From a virus: a stretch of DNA of 25,486 bases. The notes under the pieces were generated by a model. That model had not been told where the DNA came from. It did not search any database and was given only the letters and a program-made list of their open reading frames with translations. Shown piece after piece: positions 2,922-22,202 of the stretch. Position numbers and translations under genes: made by a program. The first letter of the stretch is position 1; each line of letters begins with the position of its first letter. The stretch spans positions 1 to 25,486 of IMG/VR virus record IMGVR_UViG_3300003702_000433; one strand, written 5' to 3'.

Positions 2922-5079
2922 TAGTCTTGAACAATCCTCCAGCTTGGGCTTTTGCTAACTGTCTCAATGCCTCACGATCACGTTCCATCAAAGCATTGAT
3001 TTCGGCAATATTGACTTGGGTTCCATACTTGGCCTCTAATTCAACCGCTTTCAAAACAAACTCAGCCTCGGCTTTATCGCGCTTGAGATCATCTTCCATG
3101 ATGATTTTTAGCCTGTCAGTCTCGGCATCGACAACATCTCGCTGTGCCTCAACCATGACTCGTTGCGTTTCTGCCTCTGCTTTTTGAATCTCTGCTTGAG
3201 CAAGCATCGTAGCTGGATCGCTGTCTTGTTGTCCTGGTTGCTGTGGTGGCATCGGTGGTATATTGTCGCTTACAAATGAACTTGCATCTTTGAATCCAGC
3301 AAGCTCGATAATGCGTGTTAGCGTGTTAGCGTATTGTTGCAGCGACACTAATGGATTCTGTGGACCCAGCGTTTGCAGTATTTGTTCTTGTTTTGTTGCA
3401 AATTGAGATAACACTTGCATCCGTTCTTCATCGCTGCTTTTACTGATAGCCACGTTCACAACTAAGTCTTTGTCTGAATCCCAATATCTCGGGTCAATAG
3501 CAATAAACTCGTTATTGAGTCTGAATATATCTTCTTTGTCTTGATTCTTGATTACAAGATTGTTGACTAACTTAAACAAGTCTTTCATGCCGCCTTCTGC
3601 AAAATGCCTACAAATAAGCTCAATTCTGCCTGTTGCACCACTTATTGTAGCTGCAACAGCAGCTCTCGTTGAGCTTTGCAGAGCATCAGCGTTTAAACCT
3701 GCTGATGCCTTTGAGACTCCAGTACGGTTTTCCTTTGCATCGTCTAGGTATTGCAAAACAGGAAACGCCTCTTTACCAACAAAGGGTATCGTAAACGCTT
3801 TCACCATACCTGGTGCGCGTACTCGTATAGGCTGCCCTATATCAGTATTGAGAACATCGTCAATATTTACCTGTCCTTCGACAATGGACATTCTAGGAAA
3901 GATGGCGTGGCCAAGCGAATCAAGGACATCTCGCATGATTTGAGACTTAGCCGCTTGAATCGGCATCAGATAGTCCGCGGGACATGAGCCAATGGAGGTG
4001 TGTGGCTCTGGATCTGGGGAAAAGAGAGTGAGGGGTAACTCATCCCAAGGGCTGACATTAACAATGTTCAGGCCATTTCCTGCGGTACAAACCCTGATGC
4101 GTTCCGCTATGCCATCGCCATCCAGGTCATAAAATAAATAATTTTCAACGTATAAGACATTTTTGTATCCAGGATCGTTGACATCAGGATAAGTCATCGT
4201 ATCAACAGGACTTCTTGCCTCTTCCTCTTGATACGTTGCATCGTCAAGCGTGTTGCCTGAGCCTGCATATTGCTCCATATCTTCCTGGTTGTAGCCCATA
4301 GCCACTAAATCTGAAACAGTCTTAATCATGCGATGAGCAACATAAGGCGAAGTATGAATGTCTCTTGCACTTCTTGAGATCAACACTTCTTCAGGAGGAA
4401 CAGACTCAATAACAACTTGGTCTTTAGGCTTGACTCGCCTGATTGTTACGTCAAAACTCACAGGAGTTTCTTGCGTAATCTGTTCACCTGTTATTTCGTC
4501 AACAATCGTAGAGCTTTCTGTTGTTTCTGATTCTTCGACAACTTCAACATTTTTGTCCATGAGAAGTGCCATATACGCTGCTTGCGACAAATCAGTATAA
4601 GAATGAGTTGATGTCGTTATAGAGTCATCCCAATAGGCTTTGACAAAACCTGTTTTTCGCACTAACGCATCTTTAAAGGCATCGTAGAGGACGTGGAAAC
4701 CAGGATTCTTCTCCTGGATAAGGTAATTAATATATTCTGTCTGCTGTTTAGCAATCGGTATGTCCTCTTTTGAATGAGGCACAAACTCGACAACTTTTTT
4801 AGTGCCAAAGAAAGTACGCATAATCGAGGGCAGCATAAACAATATGCTGTCGCGTACATCAGTTGATATGAACTCTGACTGGAGACTGCTTTCAGAGCCG
4901 GGCTTTTTGCCTAAATAATAATTTGTTGCCTCTGCTCTATCTTCGCCAATCTGGTCAATAAAATCTTTCGCATCATCGTATTCTGCTTTGAGAATACCAC
5001 CTAGCTTTTCTTTTGTTGCTGCATCTTCGTTGTCTTTAGATATAGCCTCTTGTGTTGATTTCTCTTTGTCGTATTTCAT
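2905..5079 (-). CDS. Portal protein, P22-like
   Basis: This 724-residue protein lies 6 bases downstream of TerL, the usual portal position. Residues 226-250 contain SVPPEEVLISRSARDI followed by PYVAHR, a pattern typical of podovirus portals of the P22-like group. Residues 75-95 (VRDSILFMLPSIMRTFFG) fit the conserved N-terminal region. The C-terminal 625-695 stretch is a long charged Ala/Glu-rich coiled coil (AQAEIQKAEAETQRVMVEAQ), comparable to the barrel or crown helices of P22-type portals. The length is close to that of P22 gp1 (725 residues). The portal dodecamer forms the DNA entry and exit vertex, docks the terminase during packaging and later holds the tail. ATG start at 5079. Confidence 0.9.
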   Translation of the reverse strand: MKYDKEKSTQEAISKDNEDAATKEKLGGILKAEYDDAKDFIDQIGEDRAEATNYYLGKKPGSESSLQSEFISTDVRDSILFMLPSIMRTFFGTKKVVEFVPHSKEDIPIAKQQTEYINYLIQEKNPGFHVLYDAFKDALVRKTGFVKAYWDDSITTSTHSYTDLSQAAYMALLMDKNVEVVEESETTESSTIVDEITGEQITQETPVSFDVTIRRVKPKDQVVIESVPPEEVLISRSARDIHTSPYVAHRMIKTVSDLVAMGYNQEDMEQYAGSGNTLDDATYQEEEARSPVDTMTYPDVNDPGYKNVLYVENYLFYDLDGDGIAERIRVCTAGNGLNIVNVSPWDELPLTLFSPDPEPHTSIGSCPADYLMPIQAAKSQIMRDVLDSLGHAIFPRMSIVEGQVNIDDVLNTDIGQPIRVRAPGMVKAFTIPFVGKEAFPVLQYLDDAKENRTGVSKASAGLNADALQSSTRAAVAATISGATGRIELICRHFAEGGMKDLFKLVNNLVIKNQDKEDIFRLNNEFIAIDPRYWDSDKDLVVNVAISKSSDEERMQVLSQFATKQEQILQTLGPQNPLVSLQQYANTLTRIIELAGFKDASSFVSDNIPPMPPQQPGQQDSDPATMLAQAEIQKAEAETQRVMVEAQRDVVDAETDRLKIIMEDDLKRDKAEAEFVLKAVELEAKYGTQVNIAEINALMERDREALRQLAKAQAGGLFKTNGSGI

Positions 5080-7472: not shown

Positions 7473-7880
7473 TTAGAGTCTTTTAATTGTATCAACAAAC
7501 GAGTTATGCTCTAACTGTTTGTTAAAGCGATCTTCGTTTACGTTAAAGTGAACTACTCCTCTGTTCATAACAAAATAAACTAACTTCTTGTCTAATGCTA
7601 CCATCGCAAAAATCTGTACTACATCTTGGTCATAAATCTCTGACTCTGATCTTTTGAAACTAAATCTATATCTGTTTTGTTTTCTGTCAGTCTCAAGTGC
7701 TGCTTTGCTCGTACTCTTTACTTGCACACCGAAATACTTTCCTCTGTTTCTGCTTTCTTCAACAACAAGATCACGTTTTCCAGTCTGTAAAGGAACATAT
7801 ACGTTCCATCTGTTCATTAGAAATCTATACGCTGCTATGACTTCTCCTGCTTTTCCATAATGTTCTGTTTTAGCTGTCAA
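7473..7880 (-). CDS. PD-(D/E)XK-type endonuclease-like protein
   Basis: This 135-residue protein fits the PD-(D/E)XK fold: E13 in an N-terminal helix (KAGEVIAAYRFLM), D37 in KRDLVVE and the Q53-x-K55 pair in FGVQVKSTS. The resemblance is to small PD-(D/E)XK proteins of the group-I-intron-endonuclease/PDDEXK_5 type. The second acidic position is Gln (QxK), which some active members tolerate. It overlaps the preceding gene by 11 bases and ends 3 bases before TerS. This placement suggests DNA processing before or during packaging, for example trimming of branched DNA, but a free-standing homing nuclease is an alternative. Role unproved. Confidence 0.65.
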   Translation of the reverse strand: MTAKTEHYGKAGEVIAAYRFLMNRWNVYVPLQTGKRDLVVEESRNRGKYFGVQVKSTSKAALETDRKQNRYRFSFKRSESEIYDQDVVQIFAMVALDKKLVYFVMNRGVVHFNVNEDRFNKQLEHNSFVDTIKRL

Positions 7881-8364
7881 TTATTTCTACATTCCCAAAT
7901 GAGTTAAAAAACTTCTTCTTAATTTCAAAAACGTCATCAGGAACTAACTCTAACAACTCAGAGACACTAAAGAAATAACTGGGTTTTTCTGCTGCTGCCA
8001 TAGAACTGATGAACTTTAAATCATCAGAATCTAAACAAACAATAATCTGCTCTTTAGTCTTAGGATGATTTGTTACCCACACATCAGGTTTCAACTCAAC
8101 AAACCCATTAACTTTAAGATTACTAACACAACTGTCTAATCCTCTAATCATACCTTCTGAGTGTGTTTTAATTTTTGCGTAATCAAGTCTCGATACAGCA
8201 AGACTCAAAAGTTGTTGTTGTCTCGACATCTTTATTTTCAAGTCAGGCTCAATCAGAGTTAATACTCTGTTAAACCCAAATGTCTTATCAATGCTCAATC
8301 TATGTTTAAGCATTTTCACATAAGCTGCATCAGCTTTGTTTTTTAATGTTTCATCTTTAGCCAC
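7870..8364 (-). CDS. Hypothetical protein downstream of putative origin
   Basis: This 164-residue protein starts MAKDETLKNKADAAYVKMLK. It has a helical N-terminal half and a mixed alpha/beta C-terminal half (FVELKPDVWVTNHPKTKEQI; FSVSELLELVPDDVFEIKKK). I recognise no family. It is the first gene after the iteron/hairpin region and overlaps the PD-(D/E)XK gene by 11 bases, so it is expressed with the packaging genes. A role in origin recognition is possible from location only. Confidence 0.7.
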   Translation of the reverse strand: MAKDETLKNKADAAYVKMLKHRLSIDKTFGFNRVLTLIEPDLKIKMSRQQQLLSLAVSRLDYAKIKTHSEGMIRGLDSCVSNLKVNGFVELKPDVWVTNHPKTKEQIIVCLDSDDLKFISSMAAAEKPSYFFSVSELLELVPDDVFEIKKKFFNSFGNVEIIDS

Positions 8365-8403
8365 AATAAGTAAGTCTCAAAAAAATAAAAAGACAAAACG
8401 CTA

Positions 8404-8441
8404 CGACACCCACGACACTCTATATAAGTGTCGTGGTGTCG
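8404..8441. repeat. Large imperfect palindrome at the origin
   Basis: Left arm cgacacccacgacact (8404-8419) and right arm agtgtcgtggtgtcg (8427-8441) pair over 15 bp with one bulged C, around the 7-base loop ctatata. The right arm runs into the first TGTCGCA iteron. Read leftward it is followed after about 5 bases by T-rich DNA (8381-8399), so a transcript terminator for the primase operon is a second reading. Confidence 0.85.
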
Positions 8442-8623
8442 CAAAGTCGTGAATTATATCTGTCATGTCTTAATCTTGTCGCAAGTGATGTCGCAGATTT
8501 TGTAAGTCATTGATATTATTATAGTTAATATTTTTATGTTTGTCGCAACTCTGTCGCAAGCTATGTCGCAAACTGCGACACTCTAATATTACGACAAAGC
8601 TATTCTGTTTAAGCGATGTCGCA
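8404..8623. other. Probable phage replication origin with TGTCGCA iterons
   Basis: The 281-base gap between the primase/helicase and the next gene contains seven direct copies of TGTCGCA (8437, 8477, 8489, 8541, 8552, 8564, 8617). One inverted copy, TGCGACA, is at 8574-8580. Further CGACAC-type half words occur at 8404-8409, 8413-8418 and 8591. Copies sit both close together (11-12 bases apart) and more widely spaced, around an AT-rich core (8500-8540). A large hairpin lies at the left end. Iterons plus an AT-rich segment plus a hairpin next to a replication gene is the usual look of an origin. Binding by the helicase/primase or by an unknown initiator is inference. Part of it may also act as promoter or operator. 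Confidence 0.65.
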
Positions 8624-8645
8624 GCAAATCTCTCAAATAAAACGC

Positions 8646-10460
8646 TCAAAACTCAGGCACATCTTTATCAGGAAACTGCGAGAGCATTGACGATGAAAAG
8701 ATCATCTTTTTGTCTGCAAGCTCTTTGATGTCTCTGTCGATAGTTCGCTTTGAAACGCCTGTTTGTGATGCTATTGAGTCTCTGTCAACGCCGTCATTTA
8801 CGAGTTTGATGACAAGATCTCTGCGCATATCTATATCGCTTTGGTCTTTTGACATGATGCCATCGCAGTATTTCCACAATACAGGTAATGTATCTCTGCC
8901 GTAAAAGTGTCTGCTCTTTTCAAACTTCCATTTGAAAGACGTTTCATATTTGTCTGAGTCGATGTCGAGTATCGAATCATCGTTGTCGTTTGTCAGCTCT
9001 GTCTGGATTACAGCATCTAAGATGACTGTTTTCGCCATGCTGCCGAGTTGTGTTCCTGCTTTTGATGAATGATGCACAAACCAGACACTTCTGTCTTGCT
9101 GTCGCATTTTCAGCAACATCGGGTTAACATCTCGCAGCCATTCTTCTGCTTGGTTGCCATCTTCAAACTGAAACAGCGTTAATAAGTTGTCAAGCACAAT
9201 AAAGTCAGGGTCTATTCTTTCGATCAGCTCATTAAACCATTCGAGTCCTTCTGCTTTGTTCAGCGGCGGCAACCCATGTTCTTGATCGTGATGACTCACG
9301 ATGATTAAATTCTTGTTGACGTTTTCGATCAGTTCTTTTTTGCGTTTTACGCTTTCTGTGTCGAACATGCTTTCCATGCTTGCGAATCTTTCTTGCAAAG
9401 CGATTGGTGGCATCTCTGCATCTATCAGCAATACTTTCTGCTGCTGTTCTATTGCGTAATGACCGAAGTCGTAGCCTGCTGCGAGACACATTGACAAGAA
9501 ACCTGTTGCGAGACTTTTGCAATGACCCGGTGCGCCATGAATCATTATCAGATGACCTCTTGCGATGAGCTGTTCTACTATCCAGACTTTTGGTGGATAC
9601 TGTTTGTCTTTGAAAACTGCGTAATCTTGATAAACGATGCGGCTTTCTTGTTCGTTCTTTTCTGCATAACTTAGTATGTCAATCGTTTCTTTGCGTTCAT
9701 AAGCATCGAACAAGTCATCTTTGTCTTTGAAGTGTTCAGGTGGTTTCACGACAACAGCTTTGATGTCAAGCGACTGCAACTGCTTTTTGAGCGAGTTAGC
9801 ACACTTGATGCCTGCATCGTCATTGTCAGGCCAGATGATTGCTTGCTTGTGCGTTATTTGCGACCAGTCTGATTGATTGAGAGCTGATACACCGCCATGC
9901 CATGCGATGCTTATGCCTTTGTATAGATTCTTTGCGCCTAGAAATGCTTTTTCGCCTTCAACAATAAGGCAAGGCAAGCTCTCATCGCCATCAGACATCA
10001 ATAGCGGCAACAACCCATCAGGTCGTTTCATCACCCATAAACCATCGTTTTCTTTCGTGAAAGGGCGATAAACTTTGCCTGAAAATCGCATGACAACGAA
10101 GTTTTCAGGATAGATTGAGCAGAACTCTGACTTGTCTCTGAGATTACGCATTTCTTTGTCTGTGTAACGCTTAGGCTTGAGCGTAGAGCCGTTTGCTTTT
10201 ATCTGTTGCAGTTTGTTATCAGATAGACCTAAAGACGTTAAAAACGAGCTTATATTGTCTTTGCCGCGTTCTCTTTCTATGAGCGCGATCATCCCACCAC
10301 CTGTTTGATTTTCGTGATCGAAGTAAGTGCCCTTTGATAGGTCGATTGAGAGCGATCCTTTTTTTCCGAATCTTAATTCATGTGAGCTGCTGAGTTTTTT
10401 GTTTGGCTCTCCAAGCAGGCTGTAAGCAATGGTTTTAGCGTGTAATGCAATATCAATCAT
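8646..10460 (-). CDS. TOPRIM primase / RecA-fold helicase
   Basis: This is a fused primase-helicase of 604 residues from the ATG at 10460; a TTG at 10478 would add six. The TOPRIM domain has LIVEGEKA (about residue 165) and AIIWPDNDDAG (about 207-217). Its helicase domain is RepA/AAA_25-like, with Walker A GAPGHCKS (309-316), LIDAEM (345-350) and Walker B DFIVLD (419-424). The C-terminus has a helix-turn-helix (IASQTGVSKRTIDRDIKEL, about 560-580). No N-terminal zinc-finger cysteines are visible. It should unwind DNA and lay primers at the fork. The Walker A cysteine replaces the usual glycine before the lysine. It lies directly upstream of the iteron region. Neither start has a strong Shine-Dalgarno. 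Confidence 0.88.
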   Translation of the reverse strand: MIDIALHAKTIAYSLLGEPNKKLSSSHELRFGKKGSLSIDLSKGTYFDHENQTGGGMIALIERERGKDNISSFLTSLGLSDNKLQQIKANGSTLKPKRYTDKEMRNLRDKSEFCSIYPENFVVMRFSGKVYRPFTKENDGLWVMKRPDGLLPLLMSDGDESLPCLIVEGEKAFLGAKNLYKGISIAWHGGVSALNQSDWSQITHKQAIIWPDNDDAGIKCANSLKKQLQSLDIKAVVVKPPEHFKDKDDLFDAYERKETIDILSYAEKNEQESRIVYQDYAVFKDKQYPPKVWIVEQLIARGHLIMIHGAPGHCKSLATGFLSMCLAAGYDFGHYAIEQQQKVLLIDAEMPPIALQERFASMESMFDTESVKRKKELIENVNKNLIIVSHHDQEHGLPPLNKAEGLEWFNELIERIDPDFIVLDNLLTLFQFEDGNQAEEWLRDVNPMLLKMRQQDRSVWFVHHSSKAGTQLGSMAKTVILDAVIQTELTNDNDDSILDIDSDKYETSFKWKFEKSRHFYGRDTLPVLWKYCDGIMSKDQSDIDMRRDLVIKLVNDGVDRDSIASQTGVSKRTIDRDIKELADKKMIFSSSMLSQFPDKDVPEF

Positions 10461-10552: not shown

Positions 10553-11197
10553 TTAAAAAGGAATTTCGTCATCAAACGGAATATCTTTTGACGTTTCAGT
10601 TGCGATGTCTTTGTTTAGACTGCTCAACTCATCTGAAATAGATGATGTGTCGCTGAATACGTCATCAGGCTCCTCGAATGGTGAAGGCGGCTCAACATCA
10701 AACTCGTTTGTAGAAACCCATTTGATGATCTTGAAAAGCGGAACTCTAGTATTGCCACCTCTTGTACCGACTTTGATTGCATCTGAGCCTAGATATTCAA
10801 CGATAGGAACTAGCCCATCGTTATCTTCTAGTTGAGCGTGAATCTCAGAGTACAGTCGGTCAAAGCCCATTGTTGCGCCTGTGCCTGTTGCACTCCACGT
10901 TCTTAGACCAATCTCTTTACCAAACAAATCGACACTAAAGCCACGTTTGTATTCGAGCTTTTCTTCTTCTGTGTTGCCTGGTCTGCCGGCTCTGACGCCT
11001 AGTTTTTCGTCCCAATGCCAATCGGGTGCTAAGCCTAGTTGTATTTTACCCCAACCGCTGCGTACACTTTCAGGGTCAATCAAGATGTATTTGATCTCTA
11101 CTTCTTCATCACCTGTGCGCCAGGAATTGGTGCTTGGCATGAAACGGATATAATAACTTGAATCCGCTCCATCGTTTAATCCTAATAAACTTGTCAT
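10553..11197 (-). CDS. Probable single-stranded DNA-binding protein
   Basis: This 214-residue protein has a beta-rich first two thirds. Its Ser/Asp/Glu-rich tail ends DDEIPF, which closely matches the C-terminal tip of bacterial SSB (DDDIPF) that recruits partner proteins. The family is not the classical short SSB; phages often carry such diverged SSB-like proteins in replication operons. It is encoded just before the primase/helicase. The start is clear: a GGAGGT Shine-Dalgarno (11204-11209) lies 6 bases before the ATG. It should coat ssDNA and may assist annealing by the recombination genes. The N-terminal fold is not proved from sequence alone. Confidence 0.65.
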   Translation of the reverse strand: MTSLLGLNDGADSSYYIRFMPSTNSWRTGDEEVEIKYILIDPESVRSGWGKIQLGLAPDWHWDEKLGVRAGRPGNTEEEKLEYKRGFSVDLFGKEIGLRTWSATGTGATMGFDRLYSEIHAQLEDNDGLVPIVEYLGSDAIKVGTRGGNTRVPLFKIIKWVSTNEFDVEPPSPFEEPDDVFSDTSSISDELSSLNKDIATETSKDIPFDDEIPF

Positions 11198-11232
11198 AAT
11201 TTTACCTCCAGTAATTTATTAGTGTTATAAAA

Positions 11233-11261
11233 ATAGTAGCAATTATTAAAAATACTACCAA
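11233..11261 (-). promoter_or_regulatory. Possible promoter before the SSB-like gene
   Basis: On the minus strand TTGGTA (11261-11256) and TACTAT (11238-11233) are separated by 17 bases and lie upstream of the strong Shine-Dalgarno of the SSB-like gene. Each box matches four of six consensus positions. AGTAG and CTACT words form an imperfect inverted pair over the spacer. This is the only gap of note between the methyltransferase and the primase. Confidence 0.35.
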
Positions 11262-11294
11262 CCTCTCGAAACTGTCGTTTTTGAAGGGCATCTT

Positions 11295-12455
11295 TCAATA
11301 CTTTTCATCTTCATAATCTTCAAATTCTTCTGCAAAAAAGAAACTCATTTGCTTATCTTCTGGTATTAAATCTTCAAACTTCATTCTTTCGCCTTTTCTA
11401 AATATAGTTATAGGCTCACCAGAAATATCTACGTTGTTTACATTAACGCGAGATGCCATTGCGTAGCCGATGACTGCGACAAAGTTTGCATCGTCAAAGT
11501 TTTCTTTGATGTATTCAATCATCGGCATAACAATCTTGTTTGATACACCATTTGCGTAACAATCGCTGATGTTGATTGCGAGATAGCCGCCATCTTTTAA
11601 TGAGCGCCATGCGTGATTGAGCATTTGAAACAGATAGCCGTTTAGCCATGCGTTAAATGTGTCGAACTTTGTATGCGACTGAATAGAATCTTTGCTGCTC
11701 GAAGTCTGATAACGCTCAACTTTAAAATAAGGTGGTGATGTAAACACAAGATCAAAGAAGTTCTCAACAGGACAATCTATCTCGCTGCCTTTGAACTCGT
11801 ATTGCACTTGAACGTCAGTCTCGTAATACTGCTCTTGCAGCACATAGCCAGCGAATACAAGCGGGTTAACATCTCTGCAATAGTAGAACTCAATGTCGCT
11901 TGCCATCGCGGCTGTGAGTCTATCTCCCCAACCACCGCATGGGTCATAAATGCGTTTTGCATTAAACAATTCATACAGAGCTTTCGCAGCAGAAGGACGA
12001 AATTGACTCGCAATATACTTACGCATTGACAAAGCACTTCTTTTGTCTATCTCCCAAAAGCCTGATGTTTCGATTGACTTTCTTATCTTTGTGTCAAACC
12101 AACTTCTGACAGGGCTTGAGAAACGGTCTGCCTCACAGGACATTCTTGCTTGCCAATGATGAAAGTCTGATGACTTGAGACCGATCATGTTTCGTTTGAT
12201 TACATATTCACTTAAATACTCATCATCAATTTCACTTCTGCTTTGCCATACTCCTTTGTTTATGAGATCGACAAACGAATGTTTTTTCAAATTGTAGAAA
12301 TCTCCTATCGCTGCGTTTTCTTTGCATCTGATAATAGGAAAATCAGGTGCAGTCTCAATCAGCTCTTTCTTGTCTATGCTTTTTATTTCTTCGAGAAAGT
12401 TATCAAACGTAAGAGTTACTTGCGTAATTTCTTCTGTTGTCTGTGTGTCGCTCAT
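11295..12455 (-). CDS. DNA methyltransferase (TSPPY type)
   Basis: This 386-residue protein has a SAM-binding motif I variant (YDPCGGWGDR, about residues 170-179) and catalytic motif IV TSPPYF (239-244). The order I then IV and the S/T-P-P-Y motif are typical of amino-methyltransferases acting on N4-cytosine or N6-adenine in DNA. The region between YYCRDVNPL and DLVFTSPPY fits the Rossmann core. Residues 1-160 have no assigned role and may recognise DNA. No restriction partner is adjacent, so it is an orphan methyltransferase, probably protecting phage DNA or marking it for replication or packaging. The ATG at 12455 shares a base with the previous stop (TGATG). RNA or protein substrates cannot be excluded. 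Confidence 0.8.
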   Translation of the reverse strand: MSDTQTTEEITQVTLTFDNFLEEIKSIDKKELIETAPDFPIIRCKENAAIGDFYNLKKHSFVDLINKGVWQSRSEIDDEYLSEYVIKRNMIGLKSSDFHHWQARMSCEADRFSSPVRSWFDTKIRKSIETSGFWEIDKRSALSMRKYIASQFRPSAAKALYELFNAKRIYDPCGGWGDRLTAAMASDIEFYYCRDVNPLVFAGYVLQEQYYETDVQVQYEFKGSEIDCPVENFFDLVFTSPPYFKVERYQTSSSKDSIQSHTKFDTFNAWLNGYLFQMLNHAWRSLKDGGYLAINISDCYANGVSNKIVMPMIEYIKENFDDANFVAVIGYAMASRVNVNNVDISGEPITIFRKGERMKFEDLIPEDKQMSFFFAEEFEDYEDEKY

Positions 12456-13389: not shown

Positions 13390-13403
13390 ATGAACAACAA
13401 TAA
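13347..13403 (+). CDS. Possible 18-residue leader ORF
   Basis: ATG at 13347 starts MEMYLNNSKRACGSYEQQ, whose stop lies inside the first codons of the next gene (start 13390). The 14-base overlap and the closeness to the predicted promoter suggest a leader peptide that could couple translation of the first early gene, which itself lacks a good Shine-Dalgarno. Too short to be sure. Confidence 0.3.
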   Translation: MEMYLNNSKRACGSYEQQ

Positions 13404-13932
13404 AACATTAGAGTTTGAAAAAGAAACTTGCAGCAGATGTGGTGGCTCAGGGGAATATTCTTACAACCCAAGAGATGAATATGTCTGCTTTAAATGTGGT
13501 GGTCGTTGCGTAACTCTTACTAAAAAAGGCAAAGCAACTGCTGAGTTTTTTAGTAACTCGTTATTTGTTTTAAATTCAGAACTCAAAAAAGGCGATTACA
13601 TTTGGGATGAAGGTATCAACATCCCTGGACATTGCGAACCAGCTGGATGGCACAAGATTGATGCAATTACAGAAACAGATTCATACTTTATGTCTGTAAA
13701 TGGAGTTGAAAGCTCTGAACCTAACCTTGAGCTTAAATTTCAAACTACTGGCTCCTCAGTCGTTTCTTTGAACGGCAAAAGCAAAAAATATCCACAAGAC
13801 AAAAAGGGTAACTCTACAAAAAAAGCATTTCGTTCTTTAAAACAGAAAGCTCTTGAGTATCAATCAACTTTAACTAAGCAAGGAAAAGTTGCTAAAAGAT
13901 TTCAGAAAAAAGAATTAACTAACCGAGGATAA
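13390..13932 (+). CDS. Early protein with DnaJ-like cysteine motifs
   Basis: This is the first gene of the rightward unit and codes 180 residues. The N-terminus has two CxxC pairs (C14/C17 in CSRCGGSGE and C33/C36 in CFKCGGRC), resembling a DnaJ-type zinc module. A middle of unknown fold (about 50-125) follows, then a strongly basic C-terminus (KSKKYPQDKKGNSTKKAF onward) ending LTNRG. The basic tail suggests nucleic-acid binding. Its last codons lie in a 25-bp repeat shared with the ends or starts of the next genes. Function unknown; the position suggests an early host- or defence-directed role. Confidence 0.7.
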   Translation: MNNNKTLEFEKETCSRCGGSGEYSYNPRDEYVCFKCGGRCVTLTKKGKATAEFFSNSLFVLNSELKKGDYIWDEGINIPGHCEPAGWHKIDAITETDSYFMSVNGVESSEPNLELKFQTTGSSVVSLNGKSKKYPQDKKGNSTKKAFRSLKQKALEYQSTLTKQGKVAKRFQKKELTNRG

Positions 13933-18294: not shown

Positions 18295-20652
18295 TTAATA
18301 GGGTGGTGCTGTTGGTGTATTTAATTGACGAATTAAATCTACTGTTCCAGCACCTATTGAGCCAGGAACAGGACCCAAAGGCTGGGCTATAGTGCCTGGT
18401 TGTGCATCAATAGCAGCTTTTATTTGACTCGCTCTATGTAGTTCTCTTATGCTTTTTGTTCCTTGGCTTAAAAATGGCAACGCTGCGAGCCAAGGTTTTA
18501 AATCTTTTATGCCTAAAACAACAACTAGATTTCTGAATAAGTCTTTGAGTGCATTGAGTGTTGCTGGTGCTGTATTCGATGCGTTTATTTGAGTATTGAG
18601 CGTTCTGTTTGCGACTCTAGCAAACTGATTCAATAATGCTTGTTCTTCTGATGAATACAAAGCACTCATCAATGGCTGATTTTCGCGTAAAGTTTTATTA
18701 ACATTTTTTAACAACGCTGCACCGCTGATACTTGTTCCTTGTGGGTTTAGGCTTGCGTTAACGATTTTTAAATAAATTTCTTGTCTTAAACTACCCCATG
18801 CTGCTGGCGTTAGATGTTTTTTCATTTTTAATAAATCTCTTTGTAAATTTACTTTTGACAAGAAACCAAGATTGCTTGAATTAAAAATGTAATTTGATGC
18901 ACTTTCTGGAGAAACCTTAAACTCAACTATTGATGTGTTTTTAGGATTAACTTGCGTGAGTCTGTCCATTAGGTTTCCAGACTCCCAAGTTGATTTGTAA
19001 TCTTTCCATCCTTTTATTGCGTTTTTCCATGATTCTATAACAGCAGAGTTTCCCTTTAGCAACGCTGTATCAAGCAAGACATTAATTTTATTGTCGAGTT
19101 CTTTTTTTATGACTTTTAATGCAGCAGAAACAGGATCGCCTTTTCCAGTTCCAATTCTACCTGTAATGCTTGATCTATAGTCAAATATTTCTTTTATTGG
19201 AACATTTGTGCCCTTAGTCTCAAATAACGCGAGTTGCTTGAGATAGCTGTCAACTAGAGCAAGTTCTTTGTTTGCTGCTCCACCAATAGTAAGAGCGTGA
19301 TCGCGTGAAACTAAATCTCTTACTTTTTGGCTGAATCCTGAAAAAACACCCGCAGGAAGAACAGATCCCTCTTGAGCTGCTAATTCTCTTACATCTTTAT
19401 ATGCTTGGTTTGCCTCTCTGCTGGCTTTGTCGCGCCCTGCTTTTATTTCAGCTTGGACTATTTCTCCTGATTGTCCTTTAGTAATCACAGGGCTTTTACC
19501 TGCTATTTGCTCTGCAATAGCAGCCCTGTTTTGATCTATTGCTCGTTGTTGAGCAACTCTAGCTTGCGTGATAATTGTTTCTGCTTGGTCACCATAGACT
19601 CCTTTTCTTGCTAAATCTTCTCGCAGTTGGATTTTTGGCCTGCCTGAAAGAGTGCCTCTCGTTTGTGGAACAGGAACAGGAAGTGATTGTGCCTCTGCGT
19701 AGGCAGCTGCCTCCTCTGGTTTTGGTTGTAAATCGCTTGGCTTTATAAACTCATTTCTCAATCTGGCTTTGAACTCTTTGGTCATTGCTTTCCACTCAAC
19801 GCCAAGTTGTTTTAAAATTTGTTGTCCTTGGGCGGTAAGCTCTCCTGTTGATGAGAAAATTGAATCATCTGCTCCACCTGTCCTGGAATACTTGCCTAGT
19901 TTTATTTGTGTGTTTTTTAGTGCCGCAGCAAGACTTGGTATAGCTGAAAAAAGAACATCGCCAGCACCTTGAAATGCTGCTGTTGCTAAACCTGTTCCAA
20001 CTGCTTTGGGTAAACTTATGCCTAAATCTCTATCTAAAAGCCCTAGAGAGGATAAAGTTCCTTTTTGTTCGCCTCCTGTAAGTGTTGAAATAAGGTCTTG
20101 TCCTGCACTTAATAAGCCGCCTGTTGCCCCTGCTTTGAGTATATTTTTGCCGATTCCGGATCCTGGCGCACCAAGTTTTAAACCTCTGCCAATTCCCATA
20201 AAACTCAATATAGTGCCGACTGCGCTGAGTGTGTCTTGCGTACTCCAGCCTGGCTTGTTTATGTAATACTCTTTGCCACCGATAACGACTGTTGTGTTTC
20301 CGTACTTATCTTCTTTGAACTGTGCATCAGGAATATTGTTTTTAATTATGTTTTTGCCAACCTCGCCATGACCACCGGTTGCCAAAAGACCCGCTGATGC
20401 TTTAAATCCGCCTTTGCCCAATGACCTAAGACCACCTACTTCTGGTGCTGCACCTACCTCTCCGATAGTTGGGTCATGTCTGCCTTCTGCTGTAAATGCA
20501 CCTTTGATTTTCGCGCCTGTCGCTGTCCATGAATCAGCTCTAGCCCAGTTGGTATTGTCTTGTGGGTCGCCTCCTCTGAATACAAACTCTCCTGTTTCAA
20601 AGGTGTATTTTTTTCCAACTGCGGGTGGGTTTTGTTCGTTCCATATTGCCAT
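18295..20652 (-). CDS. Large internal virion / DNA-ejection-type protein
   Basis: This 785-residue protein is the largest in the window. Residues 1-110 are a Gly/Asp/Trp-rich N-terminus (GEFVFRGGDPQDNTNWARAD). Several Gly/Ala-rich hydrophobic stretches follow (about 165-190, KAGATGGLLSAGQDLI; about 215-245, GTGLATAAFQGAGDVLFSAI), then a long helical region to about 740. Helical bulk plus small-residue membrane-active patches is typical of podovirus ejection proteins, which are packed in the virion and cross the host envelope to make a DNA channel. The order gp10-like, 266, 515, 785 residues supports that role. No catalytic motif was seen. Homology is inferred by context. Confidence 0.65.
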   Translation of the reverse strand: MAIWNEQNPPAVGKKYTFETGEFVFRGGDPQDNTNWARADSWTATGAKIKGAFTAEGRHDPTIGEVGAAPEVGGLRSLGKGGFKASAGLLATGGHGEVGKNIIKNNIPDAQFKEDKYGNTTVVIGGKEYYINKPGWSTQDTLSAVGTILSFMGIGRGLKLGAPGSGIGKNILKAGATGGLLSAGQDLISTLTGGEQKGTLSSLGLLDRDLGISLPKAVGTGLATAAFQGAGDVLFSAIPSLAAALKNTQIKLGKYSRTGGADDSIFSSTGELTAQGQQILKQLGVEWKAMTKEFKARLRNEFIKPSDLQPKPEEAAAYAEAQSLPVPVPQTRGTLSGRPKIQLREDLARKGVYGDQAETIITQARVAQQRAIDQNRAAIAEQIAGKSPVITKGQSGEIVQAEIKAGRDKASREANQAYKDVRELAAQEGSVLPAGVFSGFSQKVRDLVSRDHALTIGGAANKELALVDSYLKQLALFETKGTNVPIKEIFDYRSSITGRIGTGKGDPVSAALKVIKKELDNKINVLLDTALLKGNSAVIESWKNAIKGWKDYKSTWESGNLMDRLTQVNPKNTSIVEFKVSPESASNYIFNSSNLGFLSKVNLQRDLLKMKKHLTPAAWGSLRQEIYLKIVNASLNPQGTSISGAALLKNVNKTLRENQPLMSALYSSEEQALLNQFARVANRTLNTQINASNTAPATLNALKDLFRNLVVVLGIKDLKPWLAALPFLSQGTKSIRELHRASQIKAAIDAQPGTIAQPLGPVPGSIGAGTVDLIRQLNTPTAPPY

Positions 20653-20654
20653 TT

Positions 20655-22202
20655 TTATCCTGAGGGTCCGCCTGCTAATGGCTCAAAGCCATAGAAAAAG
20701 AACTCATTTTTTTCTTTGTTGTAATACATTTGTCCTTCTTTTAGTTCTCCGTTTGCAACAGCTTGATCGAAGTCAACTATTCCAGTTTCTTTATCTGCTC
20801 TCATATCAAATTTTCTAAATAATTCAGGCTCTACCCATTTATTACCAAGGTCATCGACTCCTCTGCGTAAATCTGCATTAAAATTAAGCAAATTATCATG
20901 TGTGCCGATATATCTGTTTTTTAGCTCAAGCAATTTTCTATCTCGATCTACTGTTGCTAACATAAATTTGACAATTAATTTGTTTCCTTTTGGTGTTTTC
21001 TTGAGTGATGCAATCGCGGTTTGATATAGTTTTGCCTCAAAGTCTGATGTTGCACCAGAACCGATTTCTCTCATGCGAGGAACAATGTAAGCACTTAGAG
21101 CATCAAATAGCTCTTGCTCTGCAAGATCATTAGCGAAAGTTGCACCTCTATTGCCAAACTCATTTAGCCATGATCTTATTCCTAAGAGCGCATCTTCTTT
21201 TCTTCCTGTATCAAGACCACCATCTAGTAATAACTCCATCAAATAAAGCCTGTCGGTTACATTCTTGTTTTTCTCAAGCACCGATCTATCGCTCTCTGTT
21301 TCTTTCATCGCGGCCTCAAGAAGAAATATATCTTTTTTCTTGCCCATATCAAAAATTGGCTGTGTTGATTTTCGTTTTTCTGCCAAAAATTCTGAGTAGG
21401 TTCCCATCGCTATCTCATCTTTTTCGGTGATAGGAGTGCCGCGTGTAGGATCAGTCAACATATATTCTTTAAATGATGCTGGATCTGTTGGTGGTTTAGC
21501 TCCGGCTATTTCTGCTTGCTTTTGTAATTTATACATCTCTCCCAAAAATGATGGATCTGCTTTTGCATATTCACCCATCGCTGGTGACATTTGCCCACTT
21601 TTTATCATTTCATCTATTGTGCTTTCAAGTCCAAAGCGTTGTTTGCGTAATCTTTCTTGTTCTTGCATCTGTATCATTTGATTTGTTTTTGCCATGGCGC
21701 TTGTCTCTCTGGCTTGATATCCTTGACCGATGTTACGACCGGCAAACGCATCGCTCACTCCCATTAACAAGTTTCCTATGCCTTGAAATCTTGCTGCGTT
21801 TTGTGCTTTTTTGTAAGCATCTAAATCTGCTTGTGTTTTAAAGCCACCAGCGGTTATTGCTTGTTGCTGTTCTGTGGTTGGTAAAAAACCACCGCCTCTC
21901 ATCATCGCTTGTCTTGCCCTAGAAAGCTCTGGTGGTGGCAACAAAGTTGGCGGTGGTGATGCTTTTTGCTGTTGTTGCCTTCGACTGAGTATAAGATCAG
22001 TCAAAGATTGTTGTTGTGGCAAACCTTGTATAGCTTGATTATACATAGGTGGAAATTGCTGTGGTTGAAAACCCGCAACAGCTTGATTATATGTAGGCCT
22101 TGCTTGTAGTTGATTTGCAAAATTTGTTTTTTTGAGCAAATCTGGTCGCAACAAGTCAGTTAATAATTGTTGTTGATAAGGAGACTGGTATTGTGCAGCC
22201 AT
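20655..22202 (-). CDS. Internal virion / ejection-type protein, Gln-rich N-terminus
   Basis: The gene codes 515 residues. The first 110 are rich in Gln and Pro (MAAQYQSPYQQQLLTDLLRP, then polyQ and SPPPTLLPPPELS). The rest is mainly helical, with MIQMQEQERLRKQRFGLEST and LLEAAMKETESDRSVLEKNK. It lies between the 266- and 785-residue virion-type genes with gaps of a few bases, so it is probably the second of three ejection proteins. No enzyme motif is visible. Virion location would need proteomics or a structure-based search. Confidence 0.6.
   Translation of the reverse strand: MAAQYQSPYQQQLLTDLLRPDLLKKTNFANQLQARPTYNQAVAGFQPQQFPPMYNQAIQGLPQQQSLTDLILSRRQQQQKASPPPTLLPPPELSRARQAMMRGGGFLPTTEQQQAITAGGFKTQADLDAYKKAQNAARFQGIGNLLMGVSDAFAGRNIGQGYQARETSAMAKTNQMIQMQEQERLRKQRFGLESTIDEMIKSGQMSPAMGEYAKADPSFLGEMYKLQKQAEIAGAKPPTDPASFKEYMLTDPTRGTPITEKDEIAMGTYSEFLAEKRKSTQPIFDMGKKKDIFLLEAAMKETESDRSVLEKNKNVTDRLYLMELLLDGGLDTGRKEDALLGIRSWLNEFGNRGATFANDLAEQELFDALSAYIVPRMREIGSGATSDFEAKLYQTAIASLKKTPKGNKLIVKFMLATVDRDRKLLELKNRYIGTHDNLLNFNADLRRGVDDLGNKWVEPELFRKFDMRADKETGIVDFDQAVANGELKEGQMYYNKEKNEFFFYGFEPLAGGPSG

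Follow-up and report, generated by a model that had tools for sequence, protein, structure and literature searches.

An iteron array behind a phage primase-helicase gene is a probable replication origin that the helicase itself would recognise

In IMG/VR virus record IMGVR_UViG_3300003702_000433, whose 25,486 bases are the sequence analysed here (the window, W), a primase-helicase gene and a gene for a 164-residue protein are separated by a gap in which one 7-bp word recurs eight times. This raises the question of what the array does, and of which protein reads it. A first-pass annotation of the same DNA had suggested a phage origin, with either of the two neighbouring proteins as candidate initiator. 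Judging from sequence comparisons, we consider it quite probable that the array is the replication origin of this phage and that the primase-helicase encoded next to it serves as the initiator. The features of the locus are as follows.

8365-8645, no strand: proposed origin, intergenic, 281 bp (sequence, position between genes)
8404-8441, no strand: palindrome or hairpin with a TATA-type loop (pairing, shuffles, relatives)
8437-8443, plus strand: iteron TGTCGCA (word search)
8477-8495, plus strand: iteron pair 12 bp apart (8477, 8489), one core set (word search, relatives)
8496-8540: AT-rich centre between the iteron sets, proposed melting region (sequence, position in relatives)
8503-8515, minus strand: IHF-consensus-like site TATCAATGACTTA, 9/9, within the AT-rich centre (consensus match)
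8541-8570, plus strand: iteron trio 11-12 bp apart (8541, 8552, 8564), other core set (word search, relatives)
8574-8580, minus strand: inverted iteron (word search)
8617-8623, plus strand: iteron closest to the helicase stop codon, 22 bp off (word search)
8646-10460, minus strand: primase-helicase, 604 aa from ATG (Pfam, profile, fold, model)
7870-8364, minus strand: 164-aa gene, right edge of the exchanged cassette described below (cassette boundary)

The eight copies of TGTCGCA lie within 187 bp (8437-8623), seven of them plus-strand copies and one in inverted orientation, exactly as the first-pass annotation had counted them; since both flanking genes are on the minus strand, the word in gene sense is TGCGACA. 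The earlier statement that the array is far above chance also holds: when the window as a whole was dinucleotide-shuffled 40 times, the top count for any 7-mer per 187 bp was 3-4 and never more. Over the whole window there are 12 copies against 3.5 expected, and 12 or more were reached in none of 100 shuffles. Nothing coding overlaps the array, the only open reading frame that touches the gap being a spurious one of 62 codons with a TTG start. Only one 7-mer cluster in the window is stronger, that of a coding repeat at 2-189; this 12-bp tandem repeat of 15.7 copies is not an iteron array and encodes a (TPPV)n tail, part of an open frame of 432 residues truncated by the window edge.

The hairpin has perfect arms of 10 bp (8410-8419 and 8427-8436) and extends to 15 pairs over 8404-8441; a palindrome equally good was found in 0 of 200 shuffles of the 120-bp region. 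Its earlier description as a 15-bp palindrome is thus correct in the number of pairs, while one base is bulged out and unpaired. As in known iteron origins, short direct repeats above chance stand beside a replication gene, and an AT-rich region lies between or adjacent to the iterons. IHF-consensus-like matches number 4 across the window versus 2.7 expected, a weak excess. There are no DnaA boxes close to the array, Rfam and tRNA searches gave no match, and GC skew is uninformative in this linear window fragment.

The primase-helicase matches Toprim_3 and Toprim_2 above the Pfam cut-off and AAA_25 at 1.6e-18. It carries the Toprim domain of a bacterial (DnaG-type) primase, with primase activity predicted. 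By profile the motor is closest to RSF1010 RepA (1g8y, E 3.2e-13), and Foldseek finds the chain to resemble Twinkle, T7 gp4 and RepA, with TM by target of 0.72-0.75 (RepA 1g8y test), so that sequence and fold together place the motor domain in the RSF1010 RepA helicase family. A helix-turn-helix (HTH) follows at the C-terminus (~aa 541-590, recognition helix KRTIDRDIKEL); the HTH_11 match is under the curated Pfam cut-off, and the predicted model has three C-terminal helices at 542-583.

The window further encodes a portal protein, both terminase subunits (TerL and TerS), a holin and a DNA ejection protein; it also has genes for an integrase, for an exonuclease of RecE-like type and for a RusA-like resolvase. 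The phage is presumably temperate, given the integrase gene, and probably marine, to go by its nearest named relatives and the contig sources. Two proteins of 785 and 515 aa (18295-22202, minus strand) adjoin the DNA ejection protein; they had no PHROG, Pfam or PADLOC match and are probably virion proteins. The first gene of a divergent rightward operon (13390-13932, plus strand) encodes a protein of 180 aa that weakly resembles the Anti-TRAP zinc-binding family, at a Pfam score below cut-off.

Single-sequence searches of viral and genome contigs with the helicase or the 164-aa protein returned no relatives; a portal search and alignment scans gave 15 viral loci having both flanking genes. In all 15 the array precedes the 164-aa gene (product 188-195 aa in relatives), and a total of four words occur: TGCGACA in the window and L203-L208, degenerate in L204 and L206; GTGGACA in L209 and L210; GTGCAAAC in L211, L212, L213, L215, L216 and L286; and GTGGAAAG in L214. 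The recognition helix differs from one word group to the next (S[KV]RTI[DE]RD; [IV]NERT[VI]RRD; VSSTTI[ND]KD; VSNTTVNSD). The earlier expectation that TGTCGCA spacing would be conserved in relatives is therefore borne out for spacing and layout and not for the word itself; relatives without TGTCGCA do not speak against an origin, as a different word occupies the same positions there.

The shared layout is detailed. Iterons follow one another every ~12 bp and form two sets, which lie ~190-205 and 103-133 bp ahead of the start of the 164-aa gene, with an AT-rich centre between them and a palindrome beyond. Several loci have 52 bp between the sets and others 42 bp, which differ by roughly one turn of the helix. 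In every relative examined, the palindrome occupies about -84 to -44 relative to the 164-aa start; the sequence of its arms varies between groups while pairing is maintained, and the weaker palindromes taken singly (e.g. L203, L208) are not significant versus shuffles. An inverted iteron on the helicase-proximal side is also present in L203, L205, L207 and L208. An IHF-like site recurs at the corresponding position, with 9/9 in L208 and L210 and 8/9 in L204 and L209, and is absent from the GTGCAAAC group. Only three intact word copies remain in L204 (on a contig shared with L014). One or more genes separate helicase and array in L203 (identical to L090), L204, L207 and L208, where the array remains at the 164-aa gene; the inserted genes read as PAPS-reductase-like in L203 and cupin-like in L204.

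Two natural exchanges bear on which protein reads the word. Between L209 and either L211 or L212, and between L210 and L215, DNA identity is ~95% over the primase half, falls to ~55% across motor, HTH and array, and is back at ~95% from the start of the 164-aa gene. The exchanged cassette (motor, HTH and array) spans ~1.25 kb and is found in two phage backgrounds; the 164-aa proteins are 49% identical between these backgrounds, and the same two cassette types occur in both. Over nine non-redundant loci the word-tracking AUC is 0.97 for the motor, 0.96 for the HTH, 0.85 for the primase half, 0.76 for the small terminase subunit (TerS) and 0.71 for the 164-aa protein. The motor of the window is 65% identical to L203 and to L209 alike; its HTH has 51% identity to L203 versus 30% to L209, and L203 also has the same word as the window. 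Of the two candidates named earlier, the comparison thus favours the primase-helicase, as the word changes with the helicase half of the gene. We infer from its domain type that the HTH reads the word. The HTH adjoins the array, so that any contiguous segment exchange moves both and co-inheritance alone is no proof of contact; the swapped block also includes the motor, so that HTH and motor are not separated statistically. Specificity seems to reside in a linked block of motor, HTH and iterons that passes as one piece from one phage background to another.

Similar arrays are found beside other primase-helicases. Related primase-helicases taken from viral and bacterial contigs form 60 clusters at 70% identity, of which 25 have a significant 7-mer array (p<=0.01) within 500 bp after the stop codon, compared with 0 of 58 for the 500 bp upstream of the gene and 4 of 98 more distant stretches; the other 35 clusters, of more distant relatives, have no array at this threshold in the 500 bp downstream. 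The first copy is at most ~55 bp from the stop codon in all 25 array clusters except L222 and L304. Two small plasmids also have this layout: Komagataeibacter plasmid pKNA06 (L375) has GGTGGCA 12 times at 10694-11527, and a 9.7-kb Roseomonas plasmid (L376) has CCCTGGA nine times at 3038-3613, each directly after a VapE/DUF5906-type gene; in the latter, the primase-helicase-type protein is the sole replication-type protein among the genes scanned. Both arrays are candidate plasmid origins, and the gene table annotates no origin there; GC skew in the two plasmids is not aligned with the array. The isolated phage P8625 has the same layout, with eight copies of ATCGGCA after the primase-helicase.

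Among the matches listed, unrelated viral contigs also have clusters of TGTCGCA itself immediately behind genes for DUF3987, AAA_25 and BT4734/DUF5906-type proteins. The total of contigs with three copies is an "at least" value, as is that for the reversed control ACGCTGT, and raw abundance of the word is therefore not evidence; among the matches listed, clusters of mixed orientation make up 36 of 54 for TGTCGCA versus 3 of 91 for the control. A separate phage group (L086, L091, L101, L103, L130, L134, L140, L147, L153) carries 9-11 copies of TGTCGCA/TGCGACA in a conserved arrangement between genes, next to a ~157-aa protein, which is HNH endonuclease-like by eye and has no Pfam match.

An array of this kind could instead be an operator, at which a repressor or activator, possibly the helicase HTH, controls the promoters of the 164-aa gene and of the packaging and structural operon. 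Promoter-like sites overlap the array. On the transcribed strand, two perfect TATAAT boxes are separated from GCGACA words by 17-18 bp, the conserved palindrome lies ~58 bp before the 164-aa start, and the array keeps with the 164-aa gene where genes are inserted after the helicase, all of which fits such a role. We nevertheless think it unlikely, as promoter-like sites number 6 versus 4.0 expected, the word tracks the replicative motor gene, and related plasmids and phages with other genes downstream keep the array right after the primase-helicase. A double role of the array as origin and operator is possible.

That the 164-aa protein, the other candidate of the first-pass annotation, is an iteron-binding initiator or loader we regard as very improbable. 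Its gene is adjacent and always present, with the array just before it in all loci examined; yet the 164-aa proteins of L209 and L216 are 100% identical, and those of L210 and L215 96% identical, beside different words, which argues against this protein as the reader. Nor was a DNA-binding fold found: the protein had no family, sequence or PDB match beyond its own phage group, a bcl-2I13 Pfam match was below cut-off, and the predicted model is helical with no significant fold match. Still less credible is a packaging (pac/cos) site bound by TerS, an HTH-bearing protein encoded ~900 bp downstream of the array, even though direct repeats are present at known packaging sites: the TerS of L209, L210, L211 and L212 are 80-84% identical and their words differ, W and L203 have a common word and TerS that are 42% identical, and the array is exchanged together with the helicase half and not with TerS, so that TerS was rejected as word reader.

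The reading as an origin with iterons, the first-pass proposal, is thus well supported by comparison, and it is from this that we infer origin activity. In the mechanism we propose, the C-terminal HTH of the primase-helicase would bind the ~8 iterons, whose two sets lie ~52 bp apart, and an IHF-type bend might form between the sets; motors of the RepA/T7-gp4 type would form rings and melt the AT-rich centre; and the Toprim domain would prime the opened strands, perhaps aided by the palindrome.

Several known systems share parts of this arrangement. By fold comparison the protein is a primase-RecA-motor chain like T7 gp4 and Twinkle, to which it adds a C-terminal HTH; to our knowledge, T7 gp4 and Twinkle do not recognise an iteron origin. 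ORF904 of pRN1 likewise combines primase, helicase and a C-terminal winged helix, and its essential origin is just downstream of the gene. The helicase of P4 alpha belongs to SF3. P4 alpha is a single polypeptide that unites a Toprim primase, a helicase and a domain that binds the repeats of its origin (PMC4234260), as proposed for binding here, but helicase family and origin sequences of the window differ. The likeness to RSF1010 (IncQ) lies in the motor, whose closest solved relative is RSF1010 RepA, and in a sequence of iterons, opening and then priming, the last two proposed here; RepA, RepB' and RepC are separate in RSF1010 (PMC4234260), whereas in the window a single chain combines primase, motor and proposed iteron reader.

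In layout the array matches PICI/SaPI origins: these follow the initiator gene immediately on its 3' side and have an AT-rich region flanked by two sets of iterons (PMC6092414), and the helicase recognises them through its C-terminal domain (PMC7581432); there the layout is that of a proven origin, and the Rep-ori segment drives plasmid replication (PMC6092414, PMC7581432). The loci described here have the same two sets around an AT-rich region 3' of the rep gene, with intervening genes in four of them. PICI Rep helicases are of other families, of DUF927 and Primase_Cterm/D5 type (PMC7581432), whereas the window protein matches AAA_25 and RSF1010 RepA and has a motor of RepA/T7-gp4 type; and the window is no satellite lacking virion genes, but a phage with its own portal, TerL, TerS, DNA ejection protein and integrase. 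In the literature searched we found no origin-binding helicase of the RepA/T7-gp4 motor type with downstream iterons; as many subscription papers lay outside that search, the absence counts for little.

On balance, it seems to us about evenly poised whether a primase-helicase of the RepA/T7-gp4 (SF4-like) type is here an origin-recognition protein that works without a separate initiator or loader, the motor-HTH-iteron block being a specificity cassette exchanged as a unit, such that one recombination changes replication specificity. The natural swaps provide a ready test set for HTH-iteron recognition, and also serve the question of how ring helicases of the T7-gp4/RepA type could be loaded at an origin without a separate initiator. 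The origins of most uncultured phages are so far unknown. If our reading is true, arrays that begin ~20 bp past the stop codon in primase-helicase genes of the Toprim/AAA_25, DUF3987, VapE and DUF5906 kinds would amount to a general origin-finding rule; and if that rule holds, directly 3' of the primase-helicase and for any word, the origins of many phages, plasmids and islands would become readable from sequence.
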